DNA of 64,000 bases from Streptacidiphilus melanogenes (GTDB lineage Bacteria > Actinomycetota > Actinomycetes > Streptomycetales > Streptomycetaceae): NCBI RefSeq assembly GCF_000787835.1, contig NZ_BBPP01000036.1, positions 1 to 64,000 on the forward strand, written 5' to 3'. Position 1 is the stretch's first letter. Each line of letters begins with the position of its first letter. This document shows positions 48,948 to 63,872 of the stretch, piece after piece. The notes beneath the pieces were generated by a model that was given only the letters and a program-made list of their open reading frames with translations, was not told the origin of the DNA and did no database searches. Position numbers and translations under genes: made by a program.

Positions 48948-49123
48948 CGAGTCCCTCCCCCGGGAACGTTCCCCCACGTGGCGGGGCACAAGCTTTCCAC
49001 CCACCCGCGCCGCCCGCGCAAGAGGCGTGACACAGCCGAAACCGCAGCGTGACTGCCGCGCTCAAGCCGTACTGGACCGCGCACGGAGAGAGTGGGGCGC
49101 GGTGCAGGGAGGGAGAAAGTGCG

Positions 49124-50419
49124 ATGGCGGACGCAACCACCGACGTCTGCATCGTCGGAGCCGGGCCCGCGGGGCTGACCCTGGCCCTGGAACTGGTCCG
49201 GCGCGGAGTCCGGGTCACCGTGCTGGAGCAGCGCGCGGACTTCGCCCGGACCTTCCGCGGGGAGTCGCTCTCCCCCGACTCGGTGTGGCTGCTGCGCGGG
49301 ATGGGCTTGTTCGAGCGGCTGCGCGGCTCCTGCCTGGAGATGCGCGCCCTGGAGATCACCGACGCCGGCCGGACCGTGCTGCGGGCCGACTTCGCCGACT
49401 TCCCCTATCCGCAGCGCTCGCCCGTGGAACTGCCGCAGTCGGTGCTGCTCGCCGAGCTTGCGAGGGAGTGCCGCCGGCACCGGGGCTTCCGGCTGCTGCA
49501 CCGGGTGACGGCCGTCGGGCTGCTGGGCGCGGACCGGGTGACGGGCGTGCACTGCCAGGGGCCTGACGGCCGGTTCGAGGTGCGGGCCGCGCTGACCGTG
49601 GCCGCGGACGGCCGCTACAGCCGGGTGCGCGACCTGTCGGGCCTGACCGCGGAGAAGACCCAGCTGGGCCGTGACGTGGTGTGGCTGCGGCTCCCGCGCC
49701 CCGACGTCTGGGACGCGGCCACCTACCGGATCCGTATCGACGCCGGTCGGCACGCGCTCTTCCTGCCCACCCATCCCGACGACGTCCGGGTCGGGCTGAA
49801 CATCCCCAAGGGCGGCGTGCGCAAGCTGCGCGCCGAGGGCATCGAGGGTCTGCACCGGCGCCTGGACGCGCTGGCGCCGGAGCTCTCCGAGCTGGTCCGC
49901 GCAGGGGTGCAGGAGTGGGGCGACACCAGCGTGCTGGACCTGTTCACCACCGTCGTGCCGCGCTGGTCCCGTCCGGGCCTGGCCCTGGTCGGCGACGCGG
50001 CCCACACGCTCTCGCCGATCCTCGGGCAGGGCGTCAACCACGCGCTGGCGGACGCGGTCACGCTCGCGCCGCTGATCGCGCCGCTCATCGACGCCGACCC
50101 GGCCGGCGCGGCCGTCGGCGAGGCGCTGCGCGCCTTCCAGCGCGAACGCGAACCGCTGGTCGCCCGTTCCCGGGCGCTCCAGCTGCGGCAGGAGCGGCTC
50201 TTCGCGCTGGAGCGCCCGCTCGCGGCGGCGGCGCGACGGGCGCTGTACCGGGCCGTGGACCGCAGCGCGACGTTGAAGCTGCGTGTGCTCGCCCCCGCCT
50301 ACTTCCAACTCCAGAGTCGCCAGGAACAGCGCCGCCGGCAGGAGAGCCCTCGGGAGCAGAGCCGTGACGGGCAGAACCGTGACGGTCAGGGCCGTGACGA
50401 GAGAGGAGTGGCGGCATGA
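49124..50419 (+). CDS. FAD-dependent monooxygenase (PHBH class A), first of three
   Basis: A 431-residue flavoprotein hydroxylase. The dinucleotide-binding GxGxxG is at residues 12-17 (CIVGAGPAGL), the DG motif in VAADGRYSRVRD, and GD at 290-291 (LVGDAAHTLSPILGQGVN). It probably hydroxylates or epoxidises a cluster intermediate using NAD(P)H and O2. The last 30 residues form a hydrophilic Arg/Gln/Asp/Gly repeat tail absent from typical family members, encoded by an imperfect 15-bp tandem repeat. Its stop overlaps the start of the fkbH-like gene (ATGA), so the two are coupled. ATG at 49124 has GGGAGGGAG upstream. Confidence 0.9.
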   Translation: MADATTDVCIVGAGPAGLTLALELVRRGVRVTVLEQRADFARTFRGESLSPDSVWLLRGMGLFERLRGSCLEMRALEITDAGRTVLRADFADFPYPQRSPVELPQSVLLAELARECRRHRGFRLLHRVTAVGLLGADRVTGVHCQGPDGRFEVRAALTVAADGRYSRVRDLSGLTAEKTQLGRDVVWLRLPRPDVWDAATYRIRIDAGRHALFLPTHPDDVRVGLNIPKGGVRKLRAEGIEGLHRRLDALAPELSELVRAGVQEWGDTSVLDLFTTVVPRWSRPGLALVGDAAHTLSPILGQGVNHALADAVTLAPLIAPLIDADPAGAAVGEALRAFQREREPLVARSRALQLRQERLFALERPLAAAARRALYRAVDRSATLKLRVLAPAYFQLQSRQEQRRRQESPREQSRDGQNRDGQGRDERGVAA

Positions 50420-52317
50420 CCGGGTCGAACACGGGCGCCGAGGCGCTGGAGCGGGTCCGCTCCCTGCAGGCGGGCGGAAGGCTCGCGGCCGAGTACGCCG
50501 GGCTGTCCCGGCTGCTGTCCCCCCTGGACGCCGGGGACCCGGCGCTGGTCAAGGCCGGGCGGCTGCTGGCGCGCCTCGACCCCGACGAGGTGCTGGCGCA
50601 CCGGCCGGACACCCCGGCGGTCAGGGTCGCGGCCACCGGGAGCAGCACCTTGGGCGCGCTGACGCCCTCGCTGTGCGCGGAGTTCGCCCGCCACGGGCTG
50701 CTGCCGCGGCTGACGGTCGGCGACTACGACGGGTGGCAGGTCGACCTGCGCGACCCTGAGAGCACGCTGCACGCGCCGGACACCGACCTCGCGCTGGTGC
50801 TGCTGGACGCCTCCGTGGTCTTCGACCGCCTGCCGCCCGTCTGGAGCGCTGCGGACGCGGTCGAGGCCGTGTCAGCAGCGGGCGAGGAGATCGCGGCCCT
50901 GGTGCGGGGGTTCCTGTCCAGATCCCGGGCCACGCTGGTGCTGACCACCCTGCCGCTGAGCCGCCTGCACACGCACCGGCTGGTCGACCTGCGCTCGCGC
51001 GCCGCGCTCGGCGCGGCCTGGCACGGCCTCAACTCCCGGCTGCTGGGCCTGGGCGCGGAGCTGGAGCGGGTGGTCGTGCTCGACCTGGACGTGCTGCTGA
51101 CGCAGGGCGGTCCGCTCTGCGACCCGCGCCTGGCCGCGTACGCGGGCGAGGAGCTGGGCGAGGAACTGCTCGCCCGCTGCGCCCGCGAGGTCGGGCACCT
51201 GGCCCGCGCGCTGACCGGCCGGACGCGGAAGGTGCTGGTGCTGGACCTCGACAACACGCTGTGGGACGGCGTGCTCGGCGAGGACGGCGCGGAGGGGATC
51301 GCGGCGCGCTCGACGCTGCGCGGCGAGGCCTTCGGGCGGGTGCAGCGGCTGGCCCGGCAGCTGGGCTCGCAGGGGGTGCTGCTCGCGGTGTGCAGCAAGA
51401 ACGACCGCGGTCCGGTGCTCGACGTACTGCGCGATCACCCGGACATGCAGCTGCGCGAGGCGGACTTCGTCGCCGTGCAGGCGGACTGGGGTCCGAAGAA
51501 CAAGGGCCTGGAGGAGATCGCTGAGCGGCTGGGCCTGGGCCTGGACAGCTTCGTCTTCGCCGACGACTCGGCGTTCGAGACCGGTCTGGTGGCCGCGGCG
51601 CTGCCGCAGGTCGCGGTGGTGCCGCTGGGCGCCGAACCGGCGCTCGCGCCCGAACGGCTGCTTGCCGACGGCTGGTTCGACACCCTGGAGCTGACCGAGG
51701 CGGACCGGGAGCGCACCGCGCGCTACCGCGTCGAGGCGGCCCGCTCGGACCTGCGCGAGGCGGCGACCTCGGTCGAGGCGTACCTGCGGGAGCTGGGCGT
51801 CCGCGTCTCGGTGGAGCGGGCACATCTGGGCGACGTCGGCCGGCTGGCCCAACTGACGCAGCGGACCAACCAGTTCAACCTCACCACGCGCAGACTCACG
51901 GCCGCCGAGGTGCGGTCGATGACGGAGGACCCGAGCCGTCTGGTGCTCACGGTGCGGTCCGCGGACCGCTTCGGGGACGACGGGGTGGTCGGCGCGCTCT
52001 TCGCGTGTCGCGAGCGGGACGGGCTGCGGGTGGAGAACCTGCTGCTGAGCTGCCGGGTGCTCGGGCGCGGCATCGAGCGGGCGGTGGTGGCGTCGGTGCT
52101 GGACCACGCCAAGGCGGAGGGCCTGGCGGAGGTGACCGCCGCGTACCGGGCGACGCCGCGCAACCACCGGGTGGCGGACTTCTGGCCCTCGGTCGGCTTC
52201 GCGGCGCTCCAGGAGCGGGCCACCGAGGCCGGGTCGCCGGATGCCCTGGTGTTCCGTCACCCGCTGGACCGGCCCTTGGAACTGCCCGAGCACGTGCGTC
52301 TGGACGTGGGGTTCTGA
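50416..52317 (+). CDS. FkbH-like HAD-IIIC family protein
   Basis: A 633-residue three-part protein. Residues about 1-265 form the N-terminal SGNH-like domain of FkbH proteins (ATGSSTLGAL near 75). The HAD domain starts at 272 with LVLDLDNTLWDG (Asp277, Asp279, Thr281), motif II CSKND at 326-330, Lys in PKNKG, and motif IV ADDSAFE at 382-388, a variant of the common DDNPxER. The C-terminal GNAT-like region includes LAQLTQRTNQFNLTTRRL. Known relatives dephosphorylate 1,3-bisphosphoglycerate and load glyceryl onto a carrier protein for glycerate-derived extender units or tetronates. No carrier protein or PKS lies in the window. Confidence 0.9.
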   Translation: MTGSNTGAEALERVRSLQAGGRLAAEYAGLSRLLSPLDAGDPALVKAGRLLARLDPDEVLAHRPDTPAVRVAATGSSTLGALTPSLCAEFARHGLLPRLTVGDYDGWQVDLRDPESTLHAPDTDLALVLLDASVVFDRLPPVWSAADAVEAVSAAGEEIAALVRGFLSRSRATLVLTTLPLSRLHTHRLVDLRSRAALGAAWHGLNSRLLGLGAELERVVVLDLDVLLTQGGPLCDPRLAAYAGEELGEELLARCAREVGHLARALTGRTRKVLVLDLDNTLWDGVLGEDGAEGIAARSTLRGEAFGRVQRLARQLGSQGVLLAVCSKNDRGPVLDVLRDHPDMQLREADFVAVQADWGPKNKGLEEIAERLGLGLDSFVFADDSAFETGLVAAALPQVAVVPLGAEPALAPERLLADGWFDTLELTEADRERTARYRVEAARSDLREAATSVEAYLRELGVRVSVERAHLGDVGRLAQLTQRTNQFNLTTRRLTAAEVRSMTEDPSRLVLTVRSADRFGDDGVVGALFACRERDGLRVENLLLSCRVLGRGIERAVVASVLDHAKAEGLAEVTAAYRATPRNHRVADFWPSVGFAALQERATEAGSPDALVFRHPLDRPLELPEHVRLDVGF

Positions 52318-52333
52318 CGACGCACCCGGACCC

Positions 52334-52374
52334 GTCCGCCGCCGCGGCCCGTGGGGGGCCGTCGGCGGCCGGAC
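52334..52374. terminator. Hairpin between fkbH-like gene and reductase
   Basis: An imperfect GC stem (52334-52350 with 52355-52374, bulged) in the 77 bp between convergent stops. It could end both transcripts. Confidence 0.5.
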
Positions 52375-52394
52375 GAGTCCGGGAGGCGGCGCCG

Positions 52395-53360
52395 TCAGAG
52401 GTCGAGGACCAGACGGGGCGTGCGGGCCCTGGAGACACAGATCAGCATGGTCCGGCCGGACTCGCGGTCGGCCGGGGAGAGGACGCTGTCCCGATGGTCG
52501 GGTTCGCCGCCCAGGACGTCCGTCTCGCAGGTGCCGCAGGTGCCCTCGCGGCAGGAGGAGAAGCAGTCGTCGACGCCCTCGTCCTCCAGCACATCGAGGA
52601 TGCTCTGGTCCGCCGGGACGATCACGGTCCTTCCGGTGCGGGCGAGTTCGATCTCGATCGCGGTGTCGGGCCCGGCCTCCACGCCCTCGGCGGCCTTGGG
52701 GTGGAACCGCTCCAGTCGCAGGCTCGCCCCGGCGTCCGGCCAGCCGGCCGTCCGGGCGGCGACCGCGTCGAGCAGGCCCTCGGGACCGCAGCAGTAGACC
52801 AGGGTGCCGGCGAGCGGCTCGCCGAGCGCCGCGTCGAGGTCGAGCAGGCCGGACTCCTCCTCCGTCACGACGGTCACCCGCTCGCCGTGGCGCGCCAGCT
52901 CGTCGCGGAAGGCCATCGAGGAGCCGGCTCGGCCGCCGTAGAGCAGACGCCAGTCGGTTCCCGCGGCCTCGGCTGCGGCGATCATCGGCAGCAGCGGCGT
53001 GATGCCGATGCCGCCGGCGATCAGCAGCAGGGCGGGCGAGGACTCCAGGGCGAAGTTGTTACGGGGCGCGCTGACCTGGAGGGTCTCACCGACGGTCAGG
53101 TGGTCGTGGATCCATGCGGAGCCGCCGCGGCCGTTCGGCTCGCGCAGCACGGCGACGCGGTAGCGGTCCTGCTCGGCCGGGTCCCCGCACAGGGAGTACT
53201 GGCGGATCAGCCCGTTGCCGAGGTGGAGGTCCACATGCGCGCCCGGGGTCCACGCGGGCAGGGGCAGTCCGGCCGGGTCCGCGAGGCTCAGGCCGAGCAC
53301 CCCGTCGGCGAGCCGGTCGAGCGCCAGAACGGTCAGTTTCCGGGTGTCGGTCACGGTCAT
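52395..53360 (-). CDS. Phthalate-dioxygenase-reductase-type oxidoreductase with 2Fe-2S domain
   Basis: A 321-residue electron-transfer protein. The flavin-binding barrel comes first (residues 1-105, RQYSLCGDP), then the NAD(P)H domain (LLLIAGGIGITPLLPM, about 118-133; VYCCGPEGLLDAV), then a C-terminal plant-type ferredoxin with CFSSCREGTCGTC and a fourth Cys in MLICVSRA. Such reductases feed electrons to Rieske oxygenases (VanB, PDR) or, less often, P450s. No Rieske oxygenase is in the window. GAAGGGA precedes the ATG at 53360. It is divergent from the PadR gene. Confidence 0.92.
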   Translation of the reverse strand: MTVTDTRKLTVLALDRLADGVLGLSLADPAGLPLPAWTPGAHVDLHLGNGLIRQYSLCGDPAEQDRYRVAVLREPNGRGGSAWIHDHLTVGETLQVSAPRNNFALESSPALLLIAGGIGITPLLPMIAAAEAAGTDWRLLYGGRAGSSMAFRDELARHGERVTVVTEEESGLLDLDAALGEPLAGTLVYCCGPEGLLDAVAARTAGWPDAGASLRLERFHPKAAEGVEAGPDTAIEIELARTGRTVIVPADQSILDVLEDEGVDDCFSSCREGTCGTCETDVLGGEPDHRDSVLSPADRESGRTMLICVSRARTPRLVLDL

Positions 53361-53415
53361 GGGGTTCCCTTCGGCCAAGCTGATAGTCACAACGAAACTA
53401 GGTTGCTTGTTACTA

Positions 53416-53441
53416 CTCGTCTGCGTATGCTCGTAGACGAG
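53416..53441. promoter_or_regulatory. Inverted repeat between reductase and padR
   Basis: CTCGTCT (53416-53422) and AGACGAG (53435-53441) with a 12-bp spacer, 23 bp before the PadR start and in the 103-bp divergent promoter region. It is a candidate PadR operator, although its sequence is not the ATGT/ACAT type described for several PadR proteins. Confidence 0.45.
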
Positions 53442-53463
53442 CACCGGAAAGCGGGGTGGATCG

Positions 53464-54120
53464 ATGGCTAAGCAACGCAAGGTCGGGAATCTGTTGGCGC
53501 TCGCACTGCTCTCCGCTGCCTTCCAGCGGCCCATGCACCCGTACGAGATGGCGTCGGTACTGCGCGCCAGGGGCAAGGACCAGGACATGACGATCAAGTG
53601 GGGCTCGCTCTACACGGTCGTACGCAACCTGGTAAAACACGGTCTGCTCGAAGCAGCCCTGAGCACCCGTCAAGGGGGCCGCCCGGAGCGGACGGTGTAC
53701 GAGATCACCGCCGCGGGGCGCGCGGAGCTGGAGGACTGGATCCGCGAGCTGGTCGCGGTCCCGGAGGCGGAGCATCCGCACTTCGCAGCGGGCCTCTCCG
53801 AGCTCCAGGTCCTCTCGCCGCAGGAGGCGACACAGCTGCTGGAGCTGCGGCTGCTGCGGCTGAACGCGGAGATCGCGGCGGACCGGGCCCGGCTCGACGT
53901 CGACGCGACAGAGGTGCCGCGGCTCTTCCTGATCGAATCGGAGTACCAGCTCGCGCTGCGCGAGGCGGAGGCCGCCTGGGTCGCCTCGCTGCTGCGCGAA
54001 CTCGCGGACGGCTCGCTGCCCGGCGTGGCCGAATGGCAGTCGTTCCACAGAACCGGACGGATACCGCCCGAACTGCTCGAGCTCGCCGAGCTCGGCGGGG
54101 CGGAGATACCGGCCGAGTAG
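53464..54120 (+). CDS. PadR-family transcriptional regulator
   Basis: A 218-residue regulator with an N-terminal winged helix (LALALLSAAFQRPMHPYEMA, SLYTVVRNLVKHGLLEA, ERTVYEITAAGRAELEDWI) and a long helical C-terminal domain typical of the PadR-s2/Vir-like group. It lies between the divergent reductase and the second flavin monooxygenase, both likely targets. PadR proteins usually de-repress on binding a phenolic or other small ligand. Confidence 0.92.
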   Translation: MAKQRKVGNLLALALLSAAFQRPMHPYEMASVLRARGKDQDMTIKWGSLYTVVRNLVKHGLLEAALSTRQGGRPERTVYEITAAGRAELEDWIRELVAVPEAEHPHFAAGLSELQVLSPQEATQLLELRLLRLNAEIAADRARLDVDATEVPRLFLIESEYQLALREAEAAWVASLLRELADGSLPGVAEWQSFHRTGRIPPELLELAELGGAEIPAE

Positions 54121-54301
54121 GCCAGCGGACCCCTGGTCAGGTGCGGGAACACCGGACCAGGGTCCACGTCCTCGACGCGCAACCGCTCGCACGGCCCCGC
54201 CCACGAGGTGGCGACCCAAGGATAGCCGGGGCAGTGCCGATCGGGCCGAAAACGTACGCGATTACCAAGAGCAATCCCGGATCCTTGAACAGGAGTTCGT
54301 C

Positions 54302-55507
54302 ATGACTGACAGCACCGCACGCAGCGCCCTCGTCATCGGCGGCGGCATCGCCGGTCCCGTCACCGCGCTCGCGCTGCGCCGCGCGGGCATCCAGGCCACC
54401 GTGTACGAGGCCTACAACACGAGCGACGACGGCGTCGGCGGCATGCTCGGCATCGCCTCCAACGGCATCAGCGCGCTCGACGTCGTCGGCGCGGGCGACG
54501 CGGTCCGCGGCATCGGCATCGCCGTCAAGTCGATGATTCTGCAGAGCTGGACGGGCAAGCGGCTGGCCGAGTTCGGCACCATGCCCGGCCTCGACCCGAC
54601 GCAGACCGTCTGGCGCCACGAGCTCTCCCGGGTGCTGCGCGAGGCCGCGCAGGCCCAGGGCATCCGCTACGAGACCGGAAAGCGCCTGGTCACCGCCGAG
54701 GAGTACGGCGACGGCGTCAACGCCGTCTTCGAGGACGGCAGCACCGCCCGCGGCGACATCCTGGTCGGCGCGGACGGCATCAAGTCCGTGGTCCGCGGCC
54801 TGATCGACCCCAGCGCACCCGGCCCCCGCTACACCGGCCTGGTCGGCATCGGCGGCCGCCCGCGCGGCCGGATCTCCGGGGTGCCGCTGGGCGACACCGG
54901 CATCATGTTCATGATCTTCGGCAAGCAGGCCTTCTTCGCCTACCAGGTCTACCAGGACGGCAGCGTCGGCTGGTTCGCGAACCTTCCTCGCCCGGAGCCG
55001 ATCTGGCACGCCGAGGCGCAGGCCATCGGCGCGGAGGAGTGGCTGCGCCGACTGCGCAAGATCTTCGCGGAGGACCGCACGCCCGCCCCCGCGATCCTGG
55101 CGCATGCGCGCCCCGAGGACCTGATCATCGTGGGCGGTCTGCAGGACATGCCCACCGTCCCGCACTGGAGCCGTGGGCGCATGGTTCTGGTCGGCGACTC
55201 CGCGCACGCGACCTCGCCGAGCTCCGGCCAGGGCGTCTCGGTCGCGGCGGAGAGCGCGGTCGAACTGGCCCGCTGCCTGCGGGACCAGCCCATCGCCCAG
55301 GCCTTCCGCACCTACGAGTCGATCCGCCGCCCGCGGGTGGAGCGGATCATCCAGAACGCGGCGCGGACCAACAGCCACAAGGCCGCGGGCCCGATGGGGC
55401 GGGTCATCCGGGACACGATCTTCCCCATGATGATCAAGTTCGCCAAGCCGGACCGCTTCGCCTGGCAGTTCGCCCACCGCATCGACTGGGACGCGAAGGT
55501 GCACTGA
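54302..55507 (+). CDS. FAD-dependent monooxygenase, second of three
   Basis: A 401-residue class A flavoprotein. GGGIAG at residues 13-18 is the FAD Rossmann motif, LVGADGIKSVVR the DG motif and VGDSAHATSPSSGQG (Gly298-Asp299) the GD motif. The sequence around GGMLGIASNGISALDVVGAG resembles flavin oxygenases of aromatic polyketide and indole pathways; substrate unknown. The 181-bp gap after padR may hold its own promoter. A Gly-Ile-Ala at the FAD site and the C-terminal HRIDWDAKVH are intact, so the gene looks functional. Confidence 0.9.
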   Translation: MTDSTARSALVIGGGIAGPVTALALRRAGIQATVYEAYNTSDDGVGGMLGIASNGISALDVVGAGDAVRGIGIAVKSMILQSWTGKRLAEFGTMPGLDPTQTVWRHELSRVLREAAQAQGIRYETGKRLVTAEEYGDGVNAVFEDGSTARGDILVGADGIKSVVRGLIDPSAPGPRYTGLVGIGGRPRGRISGVPLGDTGIMFMIFGKQAFFAYQVYQDGSVGWFANLPRPEPIWHAEAQAIGAEEWLRRLRKIFAEDRTPAPAILAHARPEDLIIVGGLQDMPTVPHWSRGRMVLVGDSAHATSPSSGQGVSVAAESAVELARCLRDQPIAQAFRTYESIRRPRVERIIQNAARTNSHKAAGPMGRVIRDTIFPMMIKFAKPDRFAWQFAHRIDWDAKVH

Positions 55508-55530
55508 CGCTGCGCTGAGCAAGCGAGCCG

Positions 55531-55846
55531 GTTGCACTCACCTCAAGGGGCGCGGGGCTGTACCCGATACGCGGCTCCGCCGCACGGGCACGACCCGACC
55601 ACAGGCCTCGCACCCCAGGTAGTTGCACCCAACCAGGGGCGCGGGGCTGTACCCAATAAGCGGCTCCGCCGCGCGGGCGCGACCCGACCGCAGGCCTCGC
55701 ACCGCAGGTGGTTGCACCCACCCGGGGGCGCGGGGCTGCGCCCGAAAAGCGGCTCCGCCGCGCGGGCGCGACCCGACCGCAGGCCTCGCACCGCAGGTAG
55801 TTGCACTCACTCAGGGGCGCGGAGAACTGCGCGAAAAGCCACTGGT
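55531..55846. repeat. Tandem 89-91 bp repeats with inverted terminal copy
   Basis: Units start with GTTGCAC at 55531, 55622, 55711 and 55800 (periods 91, 89, 89 bp); the fourth is partial and diverges after CTGCGCGAAAAGCC. Each unit holds GGGGCGCGGGGCTG, GCGGCTCCGCCG and CAGGCCTCGCACC. An inverted copy of the unit start (CGCGCCCCTTGATAGTGCAAC) lies at 55907-55926, so the block ends in an inverted repeat. The family also occurs at 24843-24908. It fills the 450-bp gap between the second monooxygenase and the glycosyltransferase. Confidence 0.88.
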
Positions 55847-55882
55847 GTGCGGATGGTCCTCAACGCGGAGGGCCATCCGCAC
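55847..55882 (+). terminator. Terminator in the repeat-rich gap
   Basis: GTGCGGATGG (55847-55856) and CCATCCGCAC (55873-55882) enclose a CCTC/GAGG stem, giving about 14-15 bp with one G-T pair and an AACGC loop. It would stop transcription from the second monooxygenase before the glycosyltransferase unit. Confidence 0.65.
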
Positions 55883-55957
55883 GGGGTGGTTGCTCGCGCC
55901 GTTCCTCGCGCCCCTTGATAGTGCAACTCAAGTCCCTGCCTAGTGGTTGCTGCTGCC

Positions 55958-57157
55958 ATGGGCCGCATGCGGATGGTGTTCACGTGTTGGGCTTGGCCGA
56001 CGCACCTGCATGCGATGGTGCCGTTGGCGTGGGCGGCGCGGGCCGCGGGGCATGAGGTGGCCGTCGCGGTGCCGCCGGCGCTCCGCGGTCTCGCCGCGGC
56101 GAGCGGGCTGCCGTATGCGGTGGTGGGGCGGGACGTGGACGCCGTGGCGGCGTTCCGGGAGATCGTGTCCGCCCCGGGGGGCGGGGGCGGTGGCCCCCGG
56201 GTGCTGAAGCTGATCGGGGCGCTCACCGAGGCGATGGCCGAGGACCTCGCCGACCTCGTCGGCGGCTGGCGGGCGGACCTCGTGGTGCACGACCCGACCG
56301 CCTTCGCGGGGCCGATCGCGGCCGCCGCCGCAGGCGTGCCCGCGGTGCGGCACCTGTACGGGACGGACCTGCTCGGCGCGCCCGCCGCGCGCAACTTCCT
56401 GCCGGCGGTGCTGGAGCCGGTCGCGGACCGGCTGGGGCTGGGCGCGGTGGACCCGTTCGGGGTGGCGTCCGTCGACCCGTGCCCGGGGTCGCTGCAACTG
56501 CCCACCGCCTCGCGGCGGCTGCCGATGCGGTACGTGCCGTCGAGCCCGCACGGGCGCTCCGTCGCCCCGCTGCCGCCGCGCGGCTCCCGCAGGCGGGTCG
56601 CGGTGACCTGGGGGACCACGCTGGACCGGCTCGACCCGTCGCTGCACCTGGCCGGAGAGGTGGCCCGGGCGATCGCGGGGCCGGAGACCTCCGTCGTGCT
56701 CGCGGTGACCGCCGAGCAGGCGTCGCGCCTGAGCGAACTGCCGCCGTGGACCCAGGTGGTGAGCGACGGCGCGCTGCACCAGGTGCTGCCGGGGTGCGAC
56801 GCCGTCGTCGCGCACGGCGGGGCGGCGAGCATCCTCACCGCCGTCGCGGCCGGAGTGCCGCAACTGCTGCTGCCCCGACTGCCGGACCACGTGCGGCACT
56901 CCGCGCGGCTCGCGGAGGTGGGCGCGGGGCTGGTCGTGCCGGCCGTCGAGGCGCAGGGGCAGCCGGAGCTGGTGCGCGAGCGGCTGGCCGCACTGCTGGA
57001 CGAGCCGGGCTACGCGGCGCGGGCCCGCGAGCTCGGTGCGGAGTCGCGGCTGCAGCCGTCCCCCGCCGAGGTGGTCACCGAGCTGGAACTGCTGGTCACC
57101 ACCGAGACGGCGGCGGACCGTCCAGTCGGACTCAAGCCGGGCTCCGCTCCCCGATGA
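55958..57157 (+). CDS. MGT-type (GT1) glycosyltransferase of natural-product type
   Basis: About 399 residues with the GT-B fold of macrolide and angucycline sugar transferases. The N-terminal acceptor domain has the family start MRMVFTCWAWPTHLHAMVPL and GHEVAVAVPP; the C-terminal donor domain has VAVTWGTTL and the nucleotide-sugar loop VVAHGGAASILTAVAAGVPQ, with PRLPDHVRHSARL. It should attach an activated sugar to the cluster product. Deoxysugar synthesis genes are not in the window. Starts at GTG 55943, ATG 55958 or ATG 55967 are all possible and no clear ribosome-binding site distinguishes them. Its stop overlaps an ATG of the next frame. Confidence 0.9.
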   Translation: MGRMRMVFTCWAWPTHLHAMVPLAWAARAAGHEVAVAVPPALRGLAAASGLPYAVVGRDVDAVAAFREIVSAPGGGGGGPRVLKLIGALTEAMAEDLADLVGGWRADLVVHDPTAFAGPIAAAAAGVPAVRHLYGTDLLGAPAARNFLPAVLEPVADRLGLGAVDPFGVASVDPCPGSLQLPTASRRLPMRYVPSSPHGRSVAPLPPRGSRRRVAVTWGTTLDRLDPSLHLAGEVARAIAGPETSVVLAVTAEQASRLSELPPWTQVVSDGALHQVLPGCDAVVAHGGAASILTAVAAGVPQLLLPRLPDHVRHSARLAEVGAGLVVPAVEAQGQPELVRERLAALLDEPGYAARARELGAESRLQPSPAEVVTELELLVTTETAADRPVGLKPGSAPR

Positions 57158-57195
57158 CACGCTCCACTCGTCGGCGAGTCGAAGGGGGTTCCGGC

Positions 57196-58230
57196 ATGGC
57201 CAAGGAAGTGTCCGACCACGAGTCATTCGCCATCCGCCACCGGGGCGGGGTGATGTTCGAACGGTACGACATCGATCTGCATCTGCACCCCTACCTCGGC
57301 TACGCGCTGGCCCGGAACCACCGCTCCGCGATCATCAACACGGACGAGGAGGGGTTCCGGCACGCGGACTCCCCGTTCGGGTCCGTCGACGGGCCCGGCT
57401 GGCGCGCCGCGGGGGGCGGCGGCGTCGTGCTGGGCAACTCCACCGCCTTCGGCATGGCCGCGCAGTCCGACCACGGCACCGTCGCCTCCCACCTGGCCCT
57501 GCTGCGCGGCGACCGGCAGCTCAACCTCGGCGTGGTGGGCGGGAACTCGGTGCAGGAGGTGATCGCGGGCCTGCCGTACCTGGACCTCGCCGACACGGTG
57601 GTGGTCTTCAGCGGCGCCGGCGACTACTGGACCTCGCTGGCCTCCTGGACGCCCCACAGCGCCTGGGGGCCGCTCTTCTTCGAGGGCACGCTGACCTCGC
57701 TCACCTCGATCCCGCTGTTCCAGCTCGCCGCCGTCGCCTCCGGGGCCGACCCGGACTGGCGGCCGCAGGCCCAGCCGAAGCCGGAGGCGGCCGACCGGCC
57801 CGACTTCGCCGACGTGGTGGAGCGTGTGGAGGCCGCCGCCGCCCGGCAGGTCCGGAACCTCTCCGTGGTGCAGCGGCTGGCCCGGCCGGGCGCGCGGCTG
57901 CTGTTCGCGCTGCAGCCCTTCGCGACCCCGCGCAGCCGCGAGCTGAGCGCGGCGGAGATGGAGCACTTCGACTTCCACATGCCGATGTTCGGCCAGGAGA
58001 AGAACCGCCCCTTCGAGCACCACTGGGGCCGCTTCGCCGAACTGGTGGCCAAGGGCTGCTCCGAGCTCGGGGTGCCCTTCACCGACGTCTCCGCGGACCG
58101 CTTCGAGGGCTTCGCCTTCTCCGACCACTTCCACCTGACCGACGAGGGCAACCGGCAGGCCGCCGTGATGATCCACGAGGCCCTCGCCGCGCTGCCCGCG
58201 CCGACCGCGCCCCCGACCGCCCAGCCGTGA
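57196..58230 (+). CDS. SGNH/GDSL-hydrolase-like protein
   Basis: A 344-residue protein. Block I is LGNSTAFG with the presumptive nucleophile Ser (GNS in place of GDS), block II is NLGVVGGNS, and block V is SDHFHLTDEGN with Asp and His. Block III, usually GxND, reads GAGDYW, so the oxyanion Asn is missing. It could be an esterase or acyltransferase, or an O-acyl transfer protein acting on the product. It follows the glycosyltransferase by 38 bp; an alternative ATG at 57154 overlaps the glycosyltransferase stop (ATGA) and would add 14 residues. No signal peptide is visible. Confidence 0.75.
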   Translation: MAKEVSDHESFAIRHRGGVMFERYDIDLHLHPYLGYALARNHRSAIINTDEEGFRHADSPFGSVDGPGWRAAGGGGVVLGNSTAFGMAAQSDHGTVASHLALLRGDRQLNLGVVGGNSVQEVIAGLPYLDLADTVVVFSGAGDYWTSLASWTPHSAWGPLFFEGTLTSLTSIPLFQLAAVASGADPDWRPQAQPKPEAADRPDFADVVERVEAAAARQVRNLSVVQRLARPGARLLFALQPFATPRSRELSAAEMEHFDFHMPMFGQEKNRPFEHHWGRFAELVAKGCSELGVPFTDVSADRFEGFAFSDHFHLTDEGNRQAAVMIHEALAALPAPTAPPTAQP

Positions 58231-58255
58231 CCTGAGGATCCCGAGGAGCCGACCC

Positions 58256-59620
58256 ATGCCGCAGCCCACCCCGGACGCGGAGCTCCGCGTCCTCGTCATC
58301 GGCGCCGGGACCGGCGGCCTGTGTCTGGCCCACGGGCTGCGGCGCGCCGGTATCGACGTGCAGGTCTTCGAACGGGACGCCACCCGCGCCGACGGCCTGC
58401 ACGGCTACCGCGTGGGCATCGACCCCGACGGCAGCCGGGCGCTGCGCGACTGCCTGCCGCCCGAGCTCTACGACACCTTCGTGGCGACCTGCGCGAAGGC
58501 GCCCGAGTACGTCAACTTCCTCACCGAGAAGCGCGGTGAGCTGCTCTCCGTGGGCGGCTTCACCTCGGACGACCCGGACCCGGTGGACAGCGAGAAGTCC
58601 GTCTCCCGGATGACGCTGCGGCAGGTGCTGCTGACCGGCGTCGAGGACGTGGTGCAGTTCGGCAAGGTCTTCACCCACTACACCGAGGAGCCGGACGGGC
58701 GCGTCACCGCGCACTTCGAGGACGGCACCTCGGCGACCGGCACGGTCCTGGTCGCCGCCGACGGCAGCAACTCCCGGGTGCGCCGCCAGTACCTGCCGCA
58801 CGCGGAGCTGAAGGCGCTCGGCCCGATCGGCATCACCGGCAAGGTGCCGCTGACCCCGGAGACCCGAGCCCTGCTCACGCCGAGGATGCAGCGCGGCATC
58901 TCGATGGTCTACGCCCCGCACGCGTACTTCTGCATCTTCCACGTCATGGAGTTCCCCTGGGACGAGGGCGGCCGACCGAAGAGCGGCATCGGCTCGGCCG
59001 ACGCCGAGCTGCTGGCGAGCTGGCCGGGGCTGACCTACGACAACTCCCGGGACTACGTCGACTGGGGCCTGGTCACCCAGTCCCGCCAGCTGCCGGCGAA
59101 CGTGATGGAGATGAAGAGCCCCGACCTGTACCGGCTGGTCGCGGAGCGGACCACCGACTGGCACCCGGACTTCCGCCGCCTGTTCGCGCTGGCCGACCCG
59201 AACAGCTGCTTCCCGATCAACATCCGCACCTCGGTGCCGATCCCGCAGTGGGAGACCACCCGGATCACGCTGCTCGGCGACGCGATCCACACGATGACGC
59301 CGGGCCGCGGCGTCGGCGCCAACACCGCGCTGCGCGACGCGCGCCTGCTCTGCCGCAAGCTCGTCCAGGCCCGCGACGGCGAGCTGCCGCTGCTGGACGC
59401 GATCCGGCAGTACGAGACCACGATGATCGACTACGCCTTCGACGCGGTCCGCAAGTCCGCGCGCTCCGGCGGAGGTTCCGGCCCCAGCGCGCCGGTCATC
59501 GGCCGCGCCCTGCTGGGCCTGCTGCGAACCGCGATGCGGATCGTCAACCACCTGCCCGCGGTGAAGAACAAGATGGCCGAGGGGCACCGCAGCTACCGCG
59601 GCCACGGCCGGGAGGAGTAG
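58256..59620 (+). CDS. FAD-dependent monooxygenase, third of three
   Basis: A 454-residue class A flavin monooxygenase. FAD motif VIGAGTGGL (Gly16-Gly21), DG motif VAADGSNSRVRRQYL, and GD motif LLGDAIHTMTPGRGVGANTA with Gly341-Asp342. The N-terminal sequence after the Rossmann fold (DGLHGYRVGIDPDGSRALRD) and the FCIFHVMEFPWD region resemble flavin hydroxylases acting on bulky terpenoid or polyketide substrates. It has a 60-residue C-terminal helical extension. It starts a tight run of five plus-strand genes, 6 bp before the TenA-like gene. Confidence 0.9.
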   Translation: MPQPTPDAELRVLVIGAGTGGLCLAHGLRRAGIDVQVFERDATRADGLHGYRVGIDPDGSRALRDCLPPELYDTFVATCAKAPEYVNFLTEKRGELLSVGGFTSDDPDPVDSEKSVSRMTLRQVLLTGVEDVVQFGKVFTHYTEEPDGRVTAHFEDGTSATGTVLVAADGSNSRVRRQYLPHAELKALGPIGITGKVPLTPETRALLTPRMQRGISMVYAPHAYFCIFHVMEFPWDEGGRPKSGIGSADAELLASWPGLTYDNSRDYVDWGLVTQSRQLPANVMEMKSPDLYRLVAERTTDWHPDFRRLFALADPNSCFPINIRTSVPIPQWETTRITLLGDAIHTMTPGRGVGANTALRDARLLCRKLVQARDGELPLLDAIRQYETTMIDYAFDAVRKSARSGGGSGPSAPVIGRALLGLLRTAMRIVNHLPAVKNKMAEGHRSYRGHGREE

Positions 59621-59626
59621 CCCGCC

Positions 59627-60304
59627 ATGACCACGGAGACCACGGCCACCCCGCTCCACAAGGAGCTGCTGGAGCTGGCCGCGCCGGTGCGCGACAGCGT
59701 GCTGCGACACCGCTTCTGGACCGGCCTGCGCGAGGGCGGCCTGCCCGCGACGGCGCTGGCCCGCTTCGTCGAGCAGGACACCGCCCACCTGCTGCCCGCC
59801 TACGCCCGGGCGCTGGCGCGCTGCGCGGCCGCCGCTCCCGAGGACGGGGACACGCAGCTGTTCGGCCAGTCCGTCATCGGCACCCTGGAGGCCAGGGACG
59901 GACTGCGCGCCGCCTACCGGCAGCTCGTCCCGGAGCTCGACCTGCCGCTTCTGGCCGCGACCACCGAGGCGCTGCCGGCGACCGCCGCGCACGCCTGCTT
60001 CTTCGGCGCCGCGAGCGCCACGAGCTACGCCGCGGGCGTCGGCGCGCTGCTGCCGATGGTCTGGTTCAACGCCGAGGTGAGCGACCACCTGCGTGACCAC
60101 GTCGTGCCGGGCAGCCGGTACGCGCAGTGGATCAGCGTCTACCACCCGGGGGACGGCTACCGCTACGCCGTGCAGGCGTTCCTGGACCTGACCGACCGGT
60201 TCGGCGAGAGCTGCTCGGCGCGCGACCGGCAGGTGCTGAAGTACCACTTCGCCCAGGGCATCCGCTATGAGCTCGCCTTCGCCGAATCCTGCGCGGGCGG
60301 CTGA
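59627..60304 (+). CDS. TenA-like (heme-oxygenase-fold) protein lacking thiaminase residues
   Basis: A 225-residue all-helical protein of the TenA/PqqC superfamily. The TenA pattern is recognisable: FVEQDTAHLLPAYARAL (helix with the conserved Asp), GALLPMVWFN and QWISVYHPGDGYRYAVQAFL, and the final YELAFAE. But the catalytic Cys of thiaminase II (normally LLPCxWxY) is Met and the Tyr of that motif is Asn, so it should not hydrolyse thiamin derivatives. It may be a cofactor-less oxygenase or cyclase, or a binding protein, in the pathway. It is sandwiched between the third flavin monooxygenase and the P450. Confidence 0.82.
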   Translation: MTTETTATPLHKELLELAAPVRDSVLRHRFWTGLREGGLPATALARFVEQDTAHLLPAYARALARCAAAAPEDGDTQLFGQSVIGTLEARDGLRAAYRQLVPELDLPLLAATTEALPATAAHACFFGAASATSYAAGVGALLPMVWFNAEVSDHLRDHVVPGSRYAQWISVYHPGDGYRYAVQAFLDLTDRFGESCSARDRQVLKYHFAQGIRYELAFAESCAGG

Positions 60305-60359
60305 CTGCCGCTCGGTTTGCTCCCTCCAACGACCGTCGACCGTCGCGAAAGGGCGGCAG

Positions 60360-61574
60360 ATGACCTTCACCGAAATCGACCTGATGGATCCGCGCTCCTT
60401 CGCCGACGGGGTTCCGCACGACTACTTCCGGCAGCTGCGCGCGCTCCCCGGGCTGCTGCCCGGGACCGACGACGACGGCGAGCGCTTCTGGTACGTGGTC
60501 AGGCACCGTGACGTCTCGTCCGTCTCCCGGGACGTGGCCCGCTTCTCGTCCAGCCCGACCACGATGACCTCGGTGCGGAAGGTGGACCCGAGCCCGCCGA
60601 TCATCACCTTCCAGGACGCGCCCGAGCACACCCGCGTCCGCAAGCTGACCTTCAAGGCCTTCGCGCCCGCCCGGTTGGCGCTGCTCGCCGAGCCGATCCG
60701 CCGGATCGTCGACGAGCTGCTCGACGAGTGCGTCGCCAAGGGCGAGTTCGACCTGGCCGAGGACGTCGCGCTGAAGCTGCCCTTCGCGGTGCTGCTGGAG
60801 CTGCTGGACATCCCGGACGAGGACCGGACGATGATGCTCGGCTGGGCCCGGGCCACCGTCAACCTGGGCGACCCCGAGTACGACGACAGCATGAACGGCT
60901 CGGGCGACAACTCCTTCCAGAAGATCTACGACTACCTGATCGACCTGGCCCACCGCCGGGCCGCGCAGCCCACCGACGACGTCTTCTCGATGCTGCTGGC
61001 GGCCCGCTGGGACGGCAGTCGGCTCGGCCTCGCCGACCGCCTCTCCCCCGACGAGGTGGGCCTGTTCGCCTCCACGCTGATCACGGCCGGCAGCGAGACG
61101 ACGTACTGCTCGGTGACCGGCGGCGTGCTGGCCCTGCTGGAGAACCCCGACCAGCTGGAGAAGCTGCGCGGCGACCGGGAGGCCCTGCTCGGCACCGCCA
61201 CCGCCGAGGTGGTGCGCTGGGTCACCCCGGTGACCCACTTCGCCCGCCGCGCCCTGGTGGACACCGAGGTGAACGGCCAGGCCGTGGCGGCCGGGGAGCG
61301 CGTGGTGCTCTGGTACAGCTCCGCCAACCGCGACGAGGAGGCCTTCGCCGATCCGGACCGCTTCGACGTCGGCCGCGCCCGCAACCCGCACGTCAGCTTC
61401 GGCGGCGGCGGTCCGCACGTCTGCATCGGCAACGGCCTGGCCTCGATGGAGCTGCGCGCCTTCCTCGACGGGGTGCTCGACCTGCTGCCGCGGCTGGAGA
61501 TCACCGGCGAGCCGGTGCGTCCCGAGACCAACTTCATGAACAGCGTCAAGCACCTGCCCATGCGCGTGCGGTGA
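60360..61574 (+). CDS. Cytochrome P450
   Basis: A 404-residue soluble bacterial P450. The I-helix oxygen-binding motif is ITAGSETTY (Ala243-Thr247), the ExxR motif is in AEVVRW, and the heme loop FGGGGPHVCIGNGLA carries Cys355. The N-terminus is short and hydrophilic. It probably hydroxylates or couples a cluster intermediate. Electrons could come from the 2Fe-2S reductase at 52395-53360 or from housekeeping ferredoxins; no small ferredoxin gene is adjacent. AAAGGG precedes the ATG at 60360. Confidence 0.95.
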   Translation: MTFTEIDLMDPRSFADGVPHDYFRQLRALPGLLPGTDDDGERFWYVVRHRDVSSVSRDVARFSSSPTTMTSVRKVDPSPPIITFQDAPEHTRVRKLTFKAFAPARLALLAEPIRRIVDELLDECVAKGEFDLAEDVALKLPFAVLLELLDIPDEDRTMMLGWARATVNLGDPEYDDSMNGSGDNSFQKIYDYLIDLAHRRAAQPTDDVFSMLLAARWDGSRLGLADRLSPDEVGLFASTLITAGSETTYCSVTGGVLALLENPDQLEKLRGDREALLGTATAEVVRWVTPVTHFARRALVDTEVNGQAVAAGERVVLWYSSANRDEEAFADPDRFDVGRARNPHVSFGGGGPHVCIGNGLASMELRAFLDGVLDLLPRLEITGEPVRPETNFMNSVKHLPMRVR

Positions 61575-61587
61575 GGGGAGCAGCAGC

Positions 61588-62292
61588 GTGAGCACTTCAG
61601 AACGCACCGCGCTGGTGACCGGTGCGAACCGGGGCATCGGCCGGGCCGTCGCCGCCGAGCTGCTCGGCCGCGGTCTCCGGGTGGTGCTGACCGCGCGCCG
61701 GTTCGACGACGCCCGCGGGGCCGCCCTCGAACTCGGCGCGGGCACACGGCCGCTGGCGCTGGACGTGACCGACGAGGACAGCGTCAAGCGTGCCGTCGCC
61801 GAGGCGGGGCCGGTCGACGTGCTGGTCTGCAACGCCGGAGTGCTGCTGGACGCCGGGACGGACCCGCTGTCGGTGCCGCTGGACCTGGTCGAGCAGACCC
61901 TGCGGGTCAACCTGCTGGGCACCTGGCGGGTGCTGCAGGCCTTCGTGCCGCCGATGGTGGCGCGCGGGCACGGCAGCGTCACCGTCATCTCCAGCGGGAC
62001 GACGGCGGAGTTCGGCGGCCGTCTCTTCGGCCGCACCCCCGGCTACTCGCTCTCCAAGAGCGGCCTGAACGGGCTGACCACGCTGGTGGCCGAGCACACG
62101 GCCGGCACCGGCGTCACCGTCAACGCGGTCAATCCGGGCCGGGTGCGCACCCGGATGATGCCCACCCAGGAGCAACTGCCGGAGCAGGCCGCCCGGTTCG
62201 TCGCCGACGTCGCCCTGCTCCCCACCGACGGCCCGACCGGCCAGTTCCTTACCGAGCACCGCCTCACCGAGGGCGAGCGCCGCGCGTCCTGA
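61588..62292 (+). CDS. Short-chain dehydrogenase/reductase, first
   Basis: A 234-residue classical SDR with a GTG start. TGANRGIG (cofactor loop), NAG in VLVCNAGVLL, catalytic Ser in ISSGTT and the Tyr-x3-Lys motif GYSLSKSG are all present. The C-terminal LLPTDGPTGQFLTEH resembles carbonyl-reductase-like SDRs. It is 13 bp after the P450 and likely cotranscribed; it probably oxidises or reduces a secondary alcohol or ketone made by the oxygenases. Confidence 0.9.
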   Translation: MSTSERTALVTGANRGIGRAVAAELLGRGLRVVLTARRFDDARGAALELGAGTRPLALDVTDEDSVKRAVAEAGPVDVLVCNAGVLLDAGTDPLSVPLDLVEQTLRVNLLGTWRVLQAFVPPMVARGHGSVTVISSGTTAEFGGRLFGRTPGYSLSKSGLNGLTTLVAEHTAGTGVTVNAVNPGRVRTRMMPTQEQLPEQAARFVADVALLPTDGPTGQFLTEHRLTEGERRAS

Positions 62293-62332
62293 GCCGCCCG
62301 CCGACAACCGCGAACAACCCATTGGAGGACCG

Positions 62333-63106
62333 ATGCAGATCGACATGGCCGGCAAGACGGCCGTGGTCACCGGCGCGGGCAGCGGGATCGGGCTCGCCTG
62401 TGTCCGCGCCCTGGCTGGTGCGGGCGCCGAGGTACTGGGCGGTTCCCGGACCGTCAGCCCCGAGCTTCTGGAGGCCACCCCGCACGTCATGGAGGTGGAC
62501 CTGCTCACCCCCGACGGCCCAAGCGCCCTGATCCAGCACGCGCTGGACAAGTTCGGCGGCGTCGACGTGCTGGTGAACAACGTCGGCGGCGGCGTGAAGC
62601 TGGCCAAGGGCTTCCTCGACATCGAGGACGAGACCTGGCTGCACACCTTCGAGCTGAACGTGATGACCACGATCCGGGCGACCCGCGCCGCGCTGCCGAG
62701 CCTGGTCGAGCGCGGGGGCGTGATCGTCAACATCGGTTCGATGAACGCGCACCTGGCCGACCCGACGCTGGGCCACTACTCGATCGCCAAGGCCGCCCTG
62801 TCCAACCTCGGCAAGGCGCTGTCGGCGGAGTACAGCTCGCAGGGTGTGCGGGTGAACACCATCTCCCCCGGGCCGGTGCGGACCCGGCTGTGGACCAACC
62901 CGCACATCGCGGAGCGGCTCGGCATCACCACCGAGGAGTTCCTGAAGATGGTGCCGAAGATGGCGGGCCTGTCCACCGGCGAGATGATCGAGCCGGACGA
63001 GATCGGCACGCTGGCCCTGATGTTCGCCTCCGGCCGGATCCGCAGCGTCACCGGCGCCGACTACCTGATCGACGGCGGCATGACCCGCCCGCCGGCCCGC
63101 GACTGA
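62333..63106 (+). CDS. Short-chain dehydrogenase/reductase, second (FabG-like)
   Basis: A 257-residue classical SDR with TGAGSGIGLA, NNVGGG, catalytic Ser in VNIGSMNAH and GHYSIAKAA (Tyr-x3-Lys). The C-terminus SVTGADYLIDGGMTRP is the usual FabG-type ending. TTGGAGGA precedes the ATG, so its translation is likely strong. It closes the plus-strand run and is followed by a terminator. Confidence 0.92.
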   Translation: MQIDMAGKTAVVTGAGSGIGLACVRALAGAGAEVLGGSRTVSPELLEATPHVMEVDLLTPDGPSALIQHALDKFGGVDVLVNNVGGGVKLAKGFLDIEDETWLHTFELNVMTTIRATRAALPSLVERGGVIVNIGSMNAHLADPTLGHYSIAKAALSNLGKALSAEYSSQGVRVNTISPGPVRTRLWTNPHIAERLGITTEEFLKMVPKMAGLSTGEMIEPDEIGTLALMFASGRIRSVTGADYLIDGGMTRPPARD

Positions 63107-63130
63107 CCTCCGGGCGCCAGGCCCGCGCGA

Positions 63131-63158
63131 AAGGCCCCCACCGCGCGGTGGGGGCCTT
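63131..63158. terminator. Bidirectional terminator between SDR and methyltransferase
   Basis: A perfect 13-bp stem (AAGGCCCCCACCG and its complement) with only CG between the arms, flanked by GAAA. It lies between convergent stops. Confidence 0.85.
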
Positions 63159-63176
63159 CGTCGTGCCCGCGGACGC

Positions 63177-63872
63177 TCAGCCGGCGACGGCGCGGAAGAC
63201 CGCGACGGCGCCGCGGATCCGGACGGTCACCTCCGGGAAGTACTTCTTCAGCTGGCGCTCCAGACCGGCCGGGTCGTCGCCCTGGTTCTGGAAGTTCCCG
63301 CGCTTGTGCTGCTCCAGGAGCATGTTCCGGGTCAGCTTGTTCATCGGCACGCCCTCGGCGAGCACGGAGGTGCCGAACAGCACGCCGCCGGGGCGCAGCG
63401 TCTCGGCCACGTGCTTCAGGATGATGCCCTTGCCGTCCCAGCCGCCGGGGATGGTGTGGAAGACCAGGTTCATCGCGGCCGAGTCGAAGTGGCCGGACGG
63501 CAGCGGCAGCGGCTCCATCAGGTTGGCCTGGCAGGTCTCCGGCCGGTAGCGGGCGAGGACCCGGGCGGACATGTCCAGGCACTCGCGGCTGAGGTCCAGC
63601 AGGGTGATCTCCGGGTTCGCCGGGAACTTGGCCTTGTCGACGAAGTAGCCGGTGCCGGGACCGATGTCGAGGTGGCGGCGGCCCACCTCCTCGTCGTAGA
63701 GGCGGCGCATCACGCTCGGCGGGCAGCGCCAGACCACCGGGCAGAAGACGCCGAGCACCCACTTGTCGTAGATGGCCAGCTTGCCGCGCGTGTACACGGC
63801 CTGGGCGTGCACGATCCGCGGATCGAGCTCGGCCTCGGGGCCCGGCTCGGTGCCGGGTTCGACACTCGTCAT
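63177..63872 (-). CDS. Class I SAM-dependent methyltransferase
   Basis: A 231-residue methyltransferase of the Rossmann type. Motif I is HLDIGPGTGYFVDKA (about 87-101), the acidic residue for the ribose is in ITLLDLS, and motif II/III regions are SAAMNLVFHTIP and LRPGGVLFG. An N-terminal helical part (RGKLAIYDKWVLGVFCPVVW) precedes it. It may methylate oxygen, nitrogen or carbon of the cluster product; the target cannot be told. It is transcribed towards the SDR genes. Confidence 0.9.
   Translation of the reverse strand: MTSVEPGTEPGPEAELDPRIVHAQAVYTRGKLAIYDKWVLGVFCPVVWRCPPSVMRRLYDEEVGRRHLDIGPGTGYFVDKAKFPANPEITLLDLSRECLDMSARVLARYRPETCQANLMEPLPLPSGHFDSAAMNLVFHTIPGGWDGKGIILKHVAETLRPGGVLFGTSVLAEGVPMNKLTRNMLLEQHKRGNFQNQGDDPAGLERQLKKYFPEVTVRIRGAVAVFRAVAG

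Follow-up and report, generated by a model that had tools for sequence, protein, structure and literature searches.

A gene set with a putative glyceryl-ACP synthase in Streptacidiphilus melanogenes, probably the tailoring half of a locus that combines type II polyketide and tetronate genes

In tetronate biosynthesis, as outlined in parts of PMC7489565 and PMC3625739, an FkbH protein uses 1,3-bisphosphoglycerate to charge an acyl carrier protein (ACP) with a glyceryl unit, a FabH-like enzyme joins it to the chain, and an acyltransferase and a hydrolase form the exocyclic double bond. The tetronate cassettes in the portions of the cited literature at hand release modular polyketides or fatty-acid-like chains; excerpts of PMC7176366 (abyssomicin) and PMC6066502 are further sources for comparison. 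In foxicin, according to an extract of PMC5318452, the FkbH domain lies within a non-ribosomal peptide synthetase/polyketide synthase (PKS) protein. Polycyclic xanthones are the products of type II PKS clusters (review, PMC9327801; PMC9127795, both in excerpt), and in the latter source LtmA of lanthomicin is given as 80 % to XanF and 78 % to Arx16. The present analysis concerns a stretch of 64 000 nucleotides of Streptacidiphilus melanogenes (the window), which represents positions 1–64000 of contig C72 (88,993 long) of this genome (G000), and in particular a gene set at 49124–63872 that includes an FkbH-like gene. G, C and L numbers denote genomes, contigs and loci.

The sequence-only reading of the window described this set as a probable specialized-metabolite cluster with no visible PKS, carrier protein or ketosynthase (KS), and proposed either that the core lies beyond the right edge or that this FkbH works outside the usual polyketide setting. 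The missing scaffold synthase is an effect of the window edge. The window probably holds the tailoring half, or right-hand part, of a locus of about 82 kb, in which an aromatic, pentangular-type type II PKS is combined with a tetronate pathway, and the FkbH most likely makes glyceryl-ACP for the tetronate, acting in trans. The genes of the set are as follows.

49124..50419, forward strand: FMO1, class A flavin monooxygenase, tetronate part (PF01494, 130 bits)
50416..52317, forward strand: FkbH-like glyceryl-ACP synthase, HAD-IIIC (NCBIfam TIGR01686, 289.5 bits, cut-off 146.65)
52395..53360, reverse strand: Fer2/FAD/NAD reductase, possible electron donor (PF00111, PF00175)
53464..54120, forward strand: PadR-type regulator (PF03551, 45.8 bits)
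54302..55507, forward strand: FMO2, class A flavin monooxygenase (PF01494, 97.7 bits)
55943..57157, forward strand: EryCIII-like glycosyltransferase (PF21036, PF06722; TIGR04516, 236 bits, below the cut-off of 440)
57193..58230, forward strand: SGNH-like protein (Lipase_GDSL_2, PF13472, 29.4 bits, below the cut-off of 32.9)
58256..59620, forward strand: FMO3, class A flavin monooxygenase, putative type II PKS tailoring (PF01494, 73.8 bits)
59627..60304, forward strand: TenA-like protein (TENA/THI-4, PF03070, 52.9 bits)
60360..61574, forward strand: cytochrome P450, putative type II PKS tailoring (PF00067, 79.9 bits)
61588..62292, forward strand: SDR1, short-chain dehydrogenase/reductase (PF00106, 132 bits)
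62333..63106, forward strand: SDR2, short-chain dehydrogenase/reductase (PF13561, 157 bits)
63177..63872, reverse strand: S-adenosylmethionine-dependent methyltransferase (PF13489, 40.3 bits)

The 13 genes of biosynthetic type, said to lie together with a PadR regulator, are all present as open frames, and profile searches confirm their families, except that the SGNH-like identity falls below its Pfam cut-off. The FMO1 and FkbH frames overlap by 4 bases, and the FkbH gives no Pfam match. There is indeed no KS or carrier protein among the 13 genes. All 13 are found in the same order, at 89–99.6 % identity, in the sister species G042 and G058 (taken as S. neutrinimicus and S. anmyonensis); the genes are not scattered, and the conserved order indicates that the set is not due to chance. 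The cluster does not end at 63872, as had been thought, and runs 25 kb further to the end of C72, which lies inside metH.

A second contig of the same genome, C58, carries a type II PKS and a tetronate-type operon, linked on that one contig, with the following genes.

C58:17108: YajQ, left flank; left of it, respiratory-complex genes (by eye)
C58:19962: fatty acyl-AMP ligase (FAAL)
C58:21800 and 23623: two acyl-CoA-dehydrogenase-like proteins (ACADs; 609 and 631 residues)
C58:25550: ACP
C58:25816: KS-acyltransferase (KS-AT)
C58:28914: KSIII, FabH-like (PF08545, 42.9 bits; PDB 5by7, 318 bits)
C58:29933-30190: candidate stand-alone ACP, 85 residues (position and GWDS motif; no Pfam match at E 1e-5)
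C58:30187-31047 (L017:10187-11047): E2-type (Agg4-like) acyltransferase (PF00198, 60.8 bits)
C58:30935: phosphopantetheinyl transferase (PPTase)
C58:31786: AbyA5/Agg5-like hydrolase (match to AbyA5, 5no5, E 1.1e-71)
C58:33410: P450
Between the tetronate and type II PKS parts: two SARP regulators and a thioesterase
C58:37885: type II PKS ACP
C58:40110: TcmI-type cyclase (PF04673, 140 bits)
C58:40442: cupin cyclase
C58:40879: KSalpha
C58:42159: KSbeta
C58:43880: SRPBCC cyclase
C58:46305: halogenase-like flavoprotein
Within the type II PKS part: SDRs and a methyltransferase

A set of cyclases of this kind marks pentangular polyphenols. The E2-type gene was located by reading all three frames, having been skipped by a codon-score gene finder, and the candidate ACP is 52–59 % identical to open reading frames (ORFs) at the same place in G054, G007, G055 and G078. 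No FkbH was found on C58 by tblastn, and none lies between the KSIII and the ACP, whose frames overlap by 4 bases. The KS-AT is a single open frame in both sister species. Several class A flavoproteins are present in the locus, possible candidates for the XanO4-type Baeyer-Villiger monooxygenase of polycyclic xanthone clusters. Other KSalpha/KSbeta-like pairs occur in this genome at C69:26771-29289 (accompanied by carboxylase-like and cyclase-like genes, by eye), C92:4568-6894 and C78:70410-72805.

C58 carries MetK and AdoK near its end and breaks off after the first 321 residues of MetH; C72 ends with the last 27, in matching orientation. As the MetH of G079 has 1165 residues, about 2.45 kb would be missing between the contigs, and a search of the whole assembly gave no Met_synt_B12 domain, which fits the loss of the middle part of metH there. 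In G079, MetK, AdoK, MetH, MetF and an AhcY frame stand in one row. The outer borders of the two contigs point to the same arrangement. YajQ and the MaoC flank gene (window 45168) lie on one contig, separated by 5,500, 6,419, 6,592, 7,352, 8,437, 11,549, 12,714, 20,513, 25,235 or 48,584 bases, in all 10 genomes that have both, apart from three cluster carriers, among the 14 of the genus searched (no YajQ match in G066, an additional YajQ on another contig in G037 and a partial YajQ match in G070). In all 10 the two genes are oriented relative to each other as a join of C58 forward to C72 reversed predicts. This points to an inserted segment of about 39.5 + 2.45 + 39.9 kb, so that C58 and C72 would together form one locus of about 82 kb, and it bears out the earlier proposal of an insertion beside housekeeping DNA near the tRNA/rpmG region, with flanks 5.5–48.6 kb apart in 10 other genomes of the genus. 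G042 and G058 carry the same two halves. In both, the C58-type contig breaks off within metH. On the C72 side, the G042 contig stops behind the carboxylase gene and the G058 contig extends past AhcY (covered up to its last 863 bases); the MaoC gene of G058 is on a third contig.

Genes for tRNA-Met and tRNA-Thr adjoin the insertion (window 46450-46644). A tRNA-based attachment site was considered and rejected: comparison of window 46201-49200 with C58 15501-20000 for shared stretches of at least 16 bases revealed no duplicated tRNA end at the other border, and one chance-like match of 17 bases.

The association of the two kinds of gene recurs in other genomes. A KSalpha of at least 80 % identity is present in 20 of the 394 genomes searched, own and sister species included; in the 17 beyond the sister species, identity is 80–85 %. 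The surroundings were covered for 19 of these 20 loci (all except G355), some over 20 kb only, and a tetronate KSIII is found in 11 of the 19 (G000, G042, G058, G054, G007, G079, G044, G268, G055, G078 and G131). In five of these hybrid clusters (G007, G044, G054, G079 and G268) an FkbH gene lies between the KSIII and the ACP, with KSalpha 21–59 kb away on the same contig, and all five tetronate genes are together in G054, G007 and G079. The operon order is the same in G131, where the KSIII is on a second contig. G093 and G145 were not classed. FMO1 orthologues (52–57 % identity) sit between the PPTase and the hydrolase in the tetronate operons of the five. In plasmid records, the best FkbH is at 55.8 % and the best KSalpha at 76.6–76.9 %.

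Window genes, in turn, are found beside the PKS. In G055, a single contig carries the type II PKS, a tetronate operon that lacks FkbH, and homologues of the window glycosyltransferase (57 %), FMO3 (73 %), TenA, P450, SDR1, SDR2 and methyltransferase. The last five adjoin the type II PKS on one contig in G055, G170 and G036, at 63–81 % in the first two and 64–78 % in G036: TenA, 63–66 %; P450, 74, 72 and 73 %, respectively; SDR1, 77, 78 and 76 %; SDR2, 78, 69 and 68 %; methyltransferase, 81, 80 and 78 %. FMO3 homologues of 54–58 % occur in G170, G036, G054 and G007. This identifies the window P450, SDRs, methyltransferase and TenA as type II PKS tailoring genes, in agreement with the earlier view of a specialized-metabolite cluster. 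The alternative, that the 13 genes are self-contained and act on an imported or primary metabolite, with the FkbH working outside carrier-protein chemistry, has in its favour that no synthase is found among them. It is very improbable given the linkage of seven window genes to the type II PKS on single contigs and the position of FkbH and FMO1 orthologues inside tetronate operons. The idea of an FkbH outside polyketide chemistry was dropped once its tetronate partners, the KSIII, candidate ACP, E2 acyltransferase and AbyA5-like hydrolase, were found on C58.

The other window genes are less widely shared. FMO2 has homologues of 38–39 % in the G079, G044 and G268 clusters, and the reductase (52395) is matched at 57 % by homologues in G050 and G037, within their FkbH-FAAL clusters. 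Among the regions compared, the PadR regulator and the SGNH-like protein are present only in the three Streptacidiphilus species (own, G042 and G058).

The HAD motifs of the window FkbH, for which the genome gives no second match, are intact: D277, D279, T281, D383 and D384 do not vary across the 57 relatives aligned. Of the 394 genomes of the family, 85 contain a match that reaches E 1e-60 or better. FkbH neighbourhoods were covered for 31 of the 80 loci returned (L057-L085, L091 and L132), 29 of them not from sister species. In 23 of these 29, the DNA covered has FAAL and ACAD (19) or at least a tetronate KSIII (4) near FkbH; the remaining six are L069, L070, L071, L072, L082 and L132, some on short contigs. 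Glyceryl-ACP synthesis in trans for the tetronate is suggested by the KSIII–FkbH–ACP order near a type II PKS in five genomes and by the presence on C58 of the partners without an FkbH. An FkbH is also the first enzyme of the methoxymalonyl route, and it could instead supply the polyketide with methoxymalonyl- or hydroxymalonyl-ACP as an extender or starter; the two ACAD genes and a 3-hydroxyisobutyrate-dehydrogenase-like gene, likewise on C58, might be cited for this. However, in other genomes both ACADs are part of the FAAL operon, and tetronate-specific KSIII, E2 and AbyA5-type genes are present instead of a methoxymalonyl set. As the earlier reading had noted for FkbG/I/J in the window, no compact FkbG-I-J-K set, with dehydrogenases, ACP and O-methyltransferase, was seen beside the FkbH in the window, on C72 to its end or on C58 (the last by eye), and the methoxymalonyl route, a very unlikely one, was rejected because no such partners were seen.

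In this genome and in the two sister species, no FkbH gene stands between the KSIII and the ACP; the gene is found at the opposite edge of the locus, beside FMO1. In trees, the KSIII of this lineage falls inside the hybrid-cluster clade, next to G054 (100/99), and FMO1 also groups with the hybrids (90/88). The FkbH copies of the lineage fall outside the hybrid FkbH clade (100/100), among the others, and a tree in which own and hybrid FkbHs form one group is rejected (approximately unbiased (AU) test, p-AU 0.024, a moderate result). The trees were made without the repeat genomes L057, L029, L058, L028, L034 and L035 and without the FkbHs of G131, G055 and G078; the group SOLO in them comprises every FkbH outside the own lineage and the five hybrids, whether its cluster was covered or not. 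The simplest reading suggested by these trees is that the operon copy of FkbH was lost and replaced by one from another tetronate cluster. In G055 (C193) and G078 (C1) the hybrid operon also lacks FkbH, and a second FAAL–KSIII–FkbH cluster lies elsewhere in each genome.

A possible scheme for the locus can be drawn from these gene assignments. The FAAL would load a fatty acid, the presumed source of the chain, onto an ACP, the two ACADs would desaturate it, and the KS-AT-ACP module would add one unit. The FkbH, acting in trans from the far edge of the locus, would convert 1,3-bisphosphoglycerate to glyceryl-ACP, which the FabH-like KSIII may then combine with the beta-ketoacyl chain to give the tetronate; acetylation and elimination by the E2-like acyltransferase and the AbyA5-like hydrolase would generate the exocyclic alkene. 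The type II PKS would form the polycyclic core, and its putative tailoring enzymes are the flavin monooxygenases, P450, SDRs, glycosyltransferase and methyltransferase of the window and, outside it, the AsnB-type protein and the halogenase-like flavoprotein.

The recurrent linkage of tetronate and type II PKS genes raises the prospect of a single molecule of a new kind, a pentangular/xanthone aromatic polyketide with a tetronate ring of fatty-acid origin built onto it or joined to it. According to this proposal, which we hold with about even confidence, such hybrids form a family kept in several genera, whose operons have exchanged or lost the glyceryl-ACP synthase on at least two occasions, the enzyme then being provided from another site. 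The two pathways could also be separate, an acyl-tetronate pathway and a type II PKS nested at a shared integration site, each with its own product. In 19 of the 29 FkbH loci outside the sister species, FAAL and ACAD lie beside FkbH with no KSalpha/KSbeta match in the DNA covered; the FkbH clusters of G050 and G037 likewise have a FAAL and no type II PKS near FkbH, and co-location could thus be nesting. In this genome, moreover, tetronate genes occupy both outer edges of the locus. However, the combination is kept with varying gene order in the five hybrids with FkbH, and with a KSIII and no FkbH in G055 and G078; the tetronate and PKS parts have two SARP genes and a thioesterase between them, and clusters without KSIII and FkbH still keep FAAL, ACAD2 and PPTase with the type II PKS. 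Two nested pathways are a tenable, if rather doubtful, explanation.

Several observations weigh against a combined locus with a single product. In six relatives (G170, G036, G119, G176, G332 and G373) the stretches covered contain the type II PKS, FAAL, ACAD2 and PPTase and neither KSIII nor FkbH, which makes the tetronate part optional and is also a point for nesting; in G170 a FAAL-FkbH cluster lies apart, at a distance of about 110 kb. No E2 acyltransferase is detectable in G044 and G268. None of the five clusters with FkbH in the operon has the full window tailoring set: the window methyltransferase and P450 are not the best match of any gene in them, and their TenA proteins are at 38–62 %. 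No contig spans the join of C58 and C72, where the contigs of the sister species break too, and in G054, of the same genus, the hybrid cluster is far from the YajQ–MaoC pair. The FkbH is on C72 and its proposed partners are on C58. The stand-alone ACP is assigned by position and motif, the KS-AT and KSbeta of C58 contain runs of N, with the KS-AT frame broken in the assembly, and, beside the moderate AU result, the wider group that holds the own-lineage FkbHs is weakly supported (90/83). To our knowledge, no product of a type II PKS combined with tetronate genes has been described. Among the matches listed, the titles and abstract openings of the open-licence literature include no such hybrid. 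Excerpts of the literature on foxicin, abyssomicin, albofungin, tetromadurin and lanthomicin were used in an attempt to name the product, and none was assigned.

The part of C72 to the right of the window contains the following genes, named by eye from translations unless a profile score is given.

Right of the window: two-gene ATP-binding cassette exporter
C72:66041-67897: AsnB-type, asparagine-synthetase-like amidotransferase (TIGR01536, 474 bits)
Right of the window: O-methyltransferase, second P450, NmrA-like protein, two more flavoproteins
Right of the window: LLM oxidoreductase, secreted protein, second TenA, third SDR
Right of the window: second PadR, response regulator, kinase
C72:81983-84343: YcaO protein (TIGR03604, 259 bits; TIGR03882, 159 bits)
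Toward the right end: acyl-CoA carboxylase beta subunit, AhcY, MetF
Very end: last residues of MetH

A YcaO cyclodehydratase fused to a leader-binding domain (C72:81983-84343 here; also L228:438-4672) is present in 15 of the 19 type II PKS neighbourhoods; it was not found in G036, G119, G093 and G145, which were covered in short or cut stretches. In G055 and G079 it is preceded by a putative thiazole/oxazole-modified microcin (TOMM) peptide (TIGR04351, 60–61 bits, cut-off 65), and G055 additionally has a SagB-type dehydrogenase (152 bits). In this genome a 66-aa ORF at the place of the TOMM peptide has no family match, and no SagB gene was seen.

The window TenA has as its best PDB match 9wdg (210 bits), a TenA-family protein named LysR2, and scores 57 bits against TIGR04306 (cut-off 130). 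In thiaminase II (TenA) the active-site cysteine is essential for catalysis. Alignment to TenA 1to9 shows Met at this position (ALLPM, as against ALLPC), and the thiaminase II active-site cysteine is therefore absent from the window TenA.

The repeated union of tetronate and type II PKS genes suggests that a family of aromatic-tetronate compounds, which may be relatives of the antibacterial polycyclic xanthones, awaits exploration. The displacement of FkbH provides a natural test of whether glyceryl-ACP synthases can be exchanged between carrier proteins, and the locus also illustrates how a cluster split over two contigs mimics one without a synthase.

Three kinds of known system can be compared with the locus. 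The FAAL-ACAD-KS/AT-FkbH clusters of Kitasatospora indigofera, Streptomyces griseosporeus and Streptomyces flaveus share with it FAAL, ACAD, ACP, KS-AT and FkbH, at 49–60 % identity, and the window FkbH is closest to this group (60 %; 62 % in L082), whereas those clusters are without KSalpha/KSbeta within the flanks (up to 10 kb, less at contig ends). With the polycyclic xanthone clusters (xantholipin xan, lysolipin, albofungin, lanthomicin ltm and arixanthomycin arx) it has in common the minimal type II PKS, TcmI-like, cupin and SRPBCC cyclases, an AsnB-like amidotransferase, FAD monooxygenases, P450s, methyltransferases and a halogenase-like flavoprotein, a likeness by description; FkbH, FAAL, KSIII-tetronate, TenA-like and YcaO genes set the locus apart. 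The terms 'FkbH' and 'TenA' do not occur in the main texts on albofungin (PMC9469721, PMC7902042) and lanthomicin (PMC9127795). The glycerate-utilization operon of tetronates, as described in part for tetromadurin (mad7/8/16/17/18) and abyssomicin (abyA1-A5), has candidates here for all five of its enzyme types. In contrast to that operon, the five genes are not together in this locus, with FkbH at its far edge, on C72, and the other four on C58; the chain would come from the FAAL and a single KS-AT-ACP module rather than from a modular PKS, and the operon lies beside a type II PKS.

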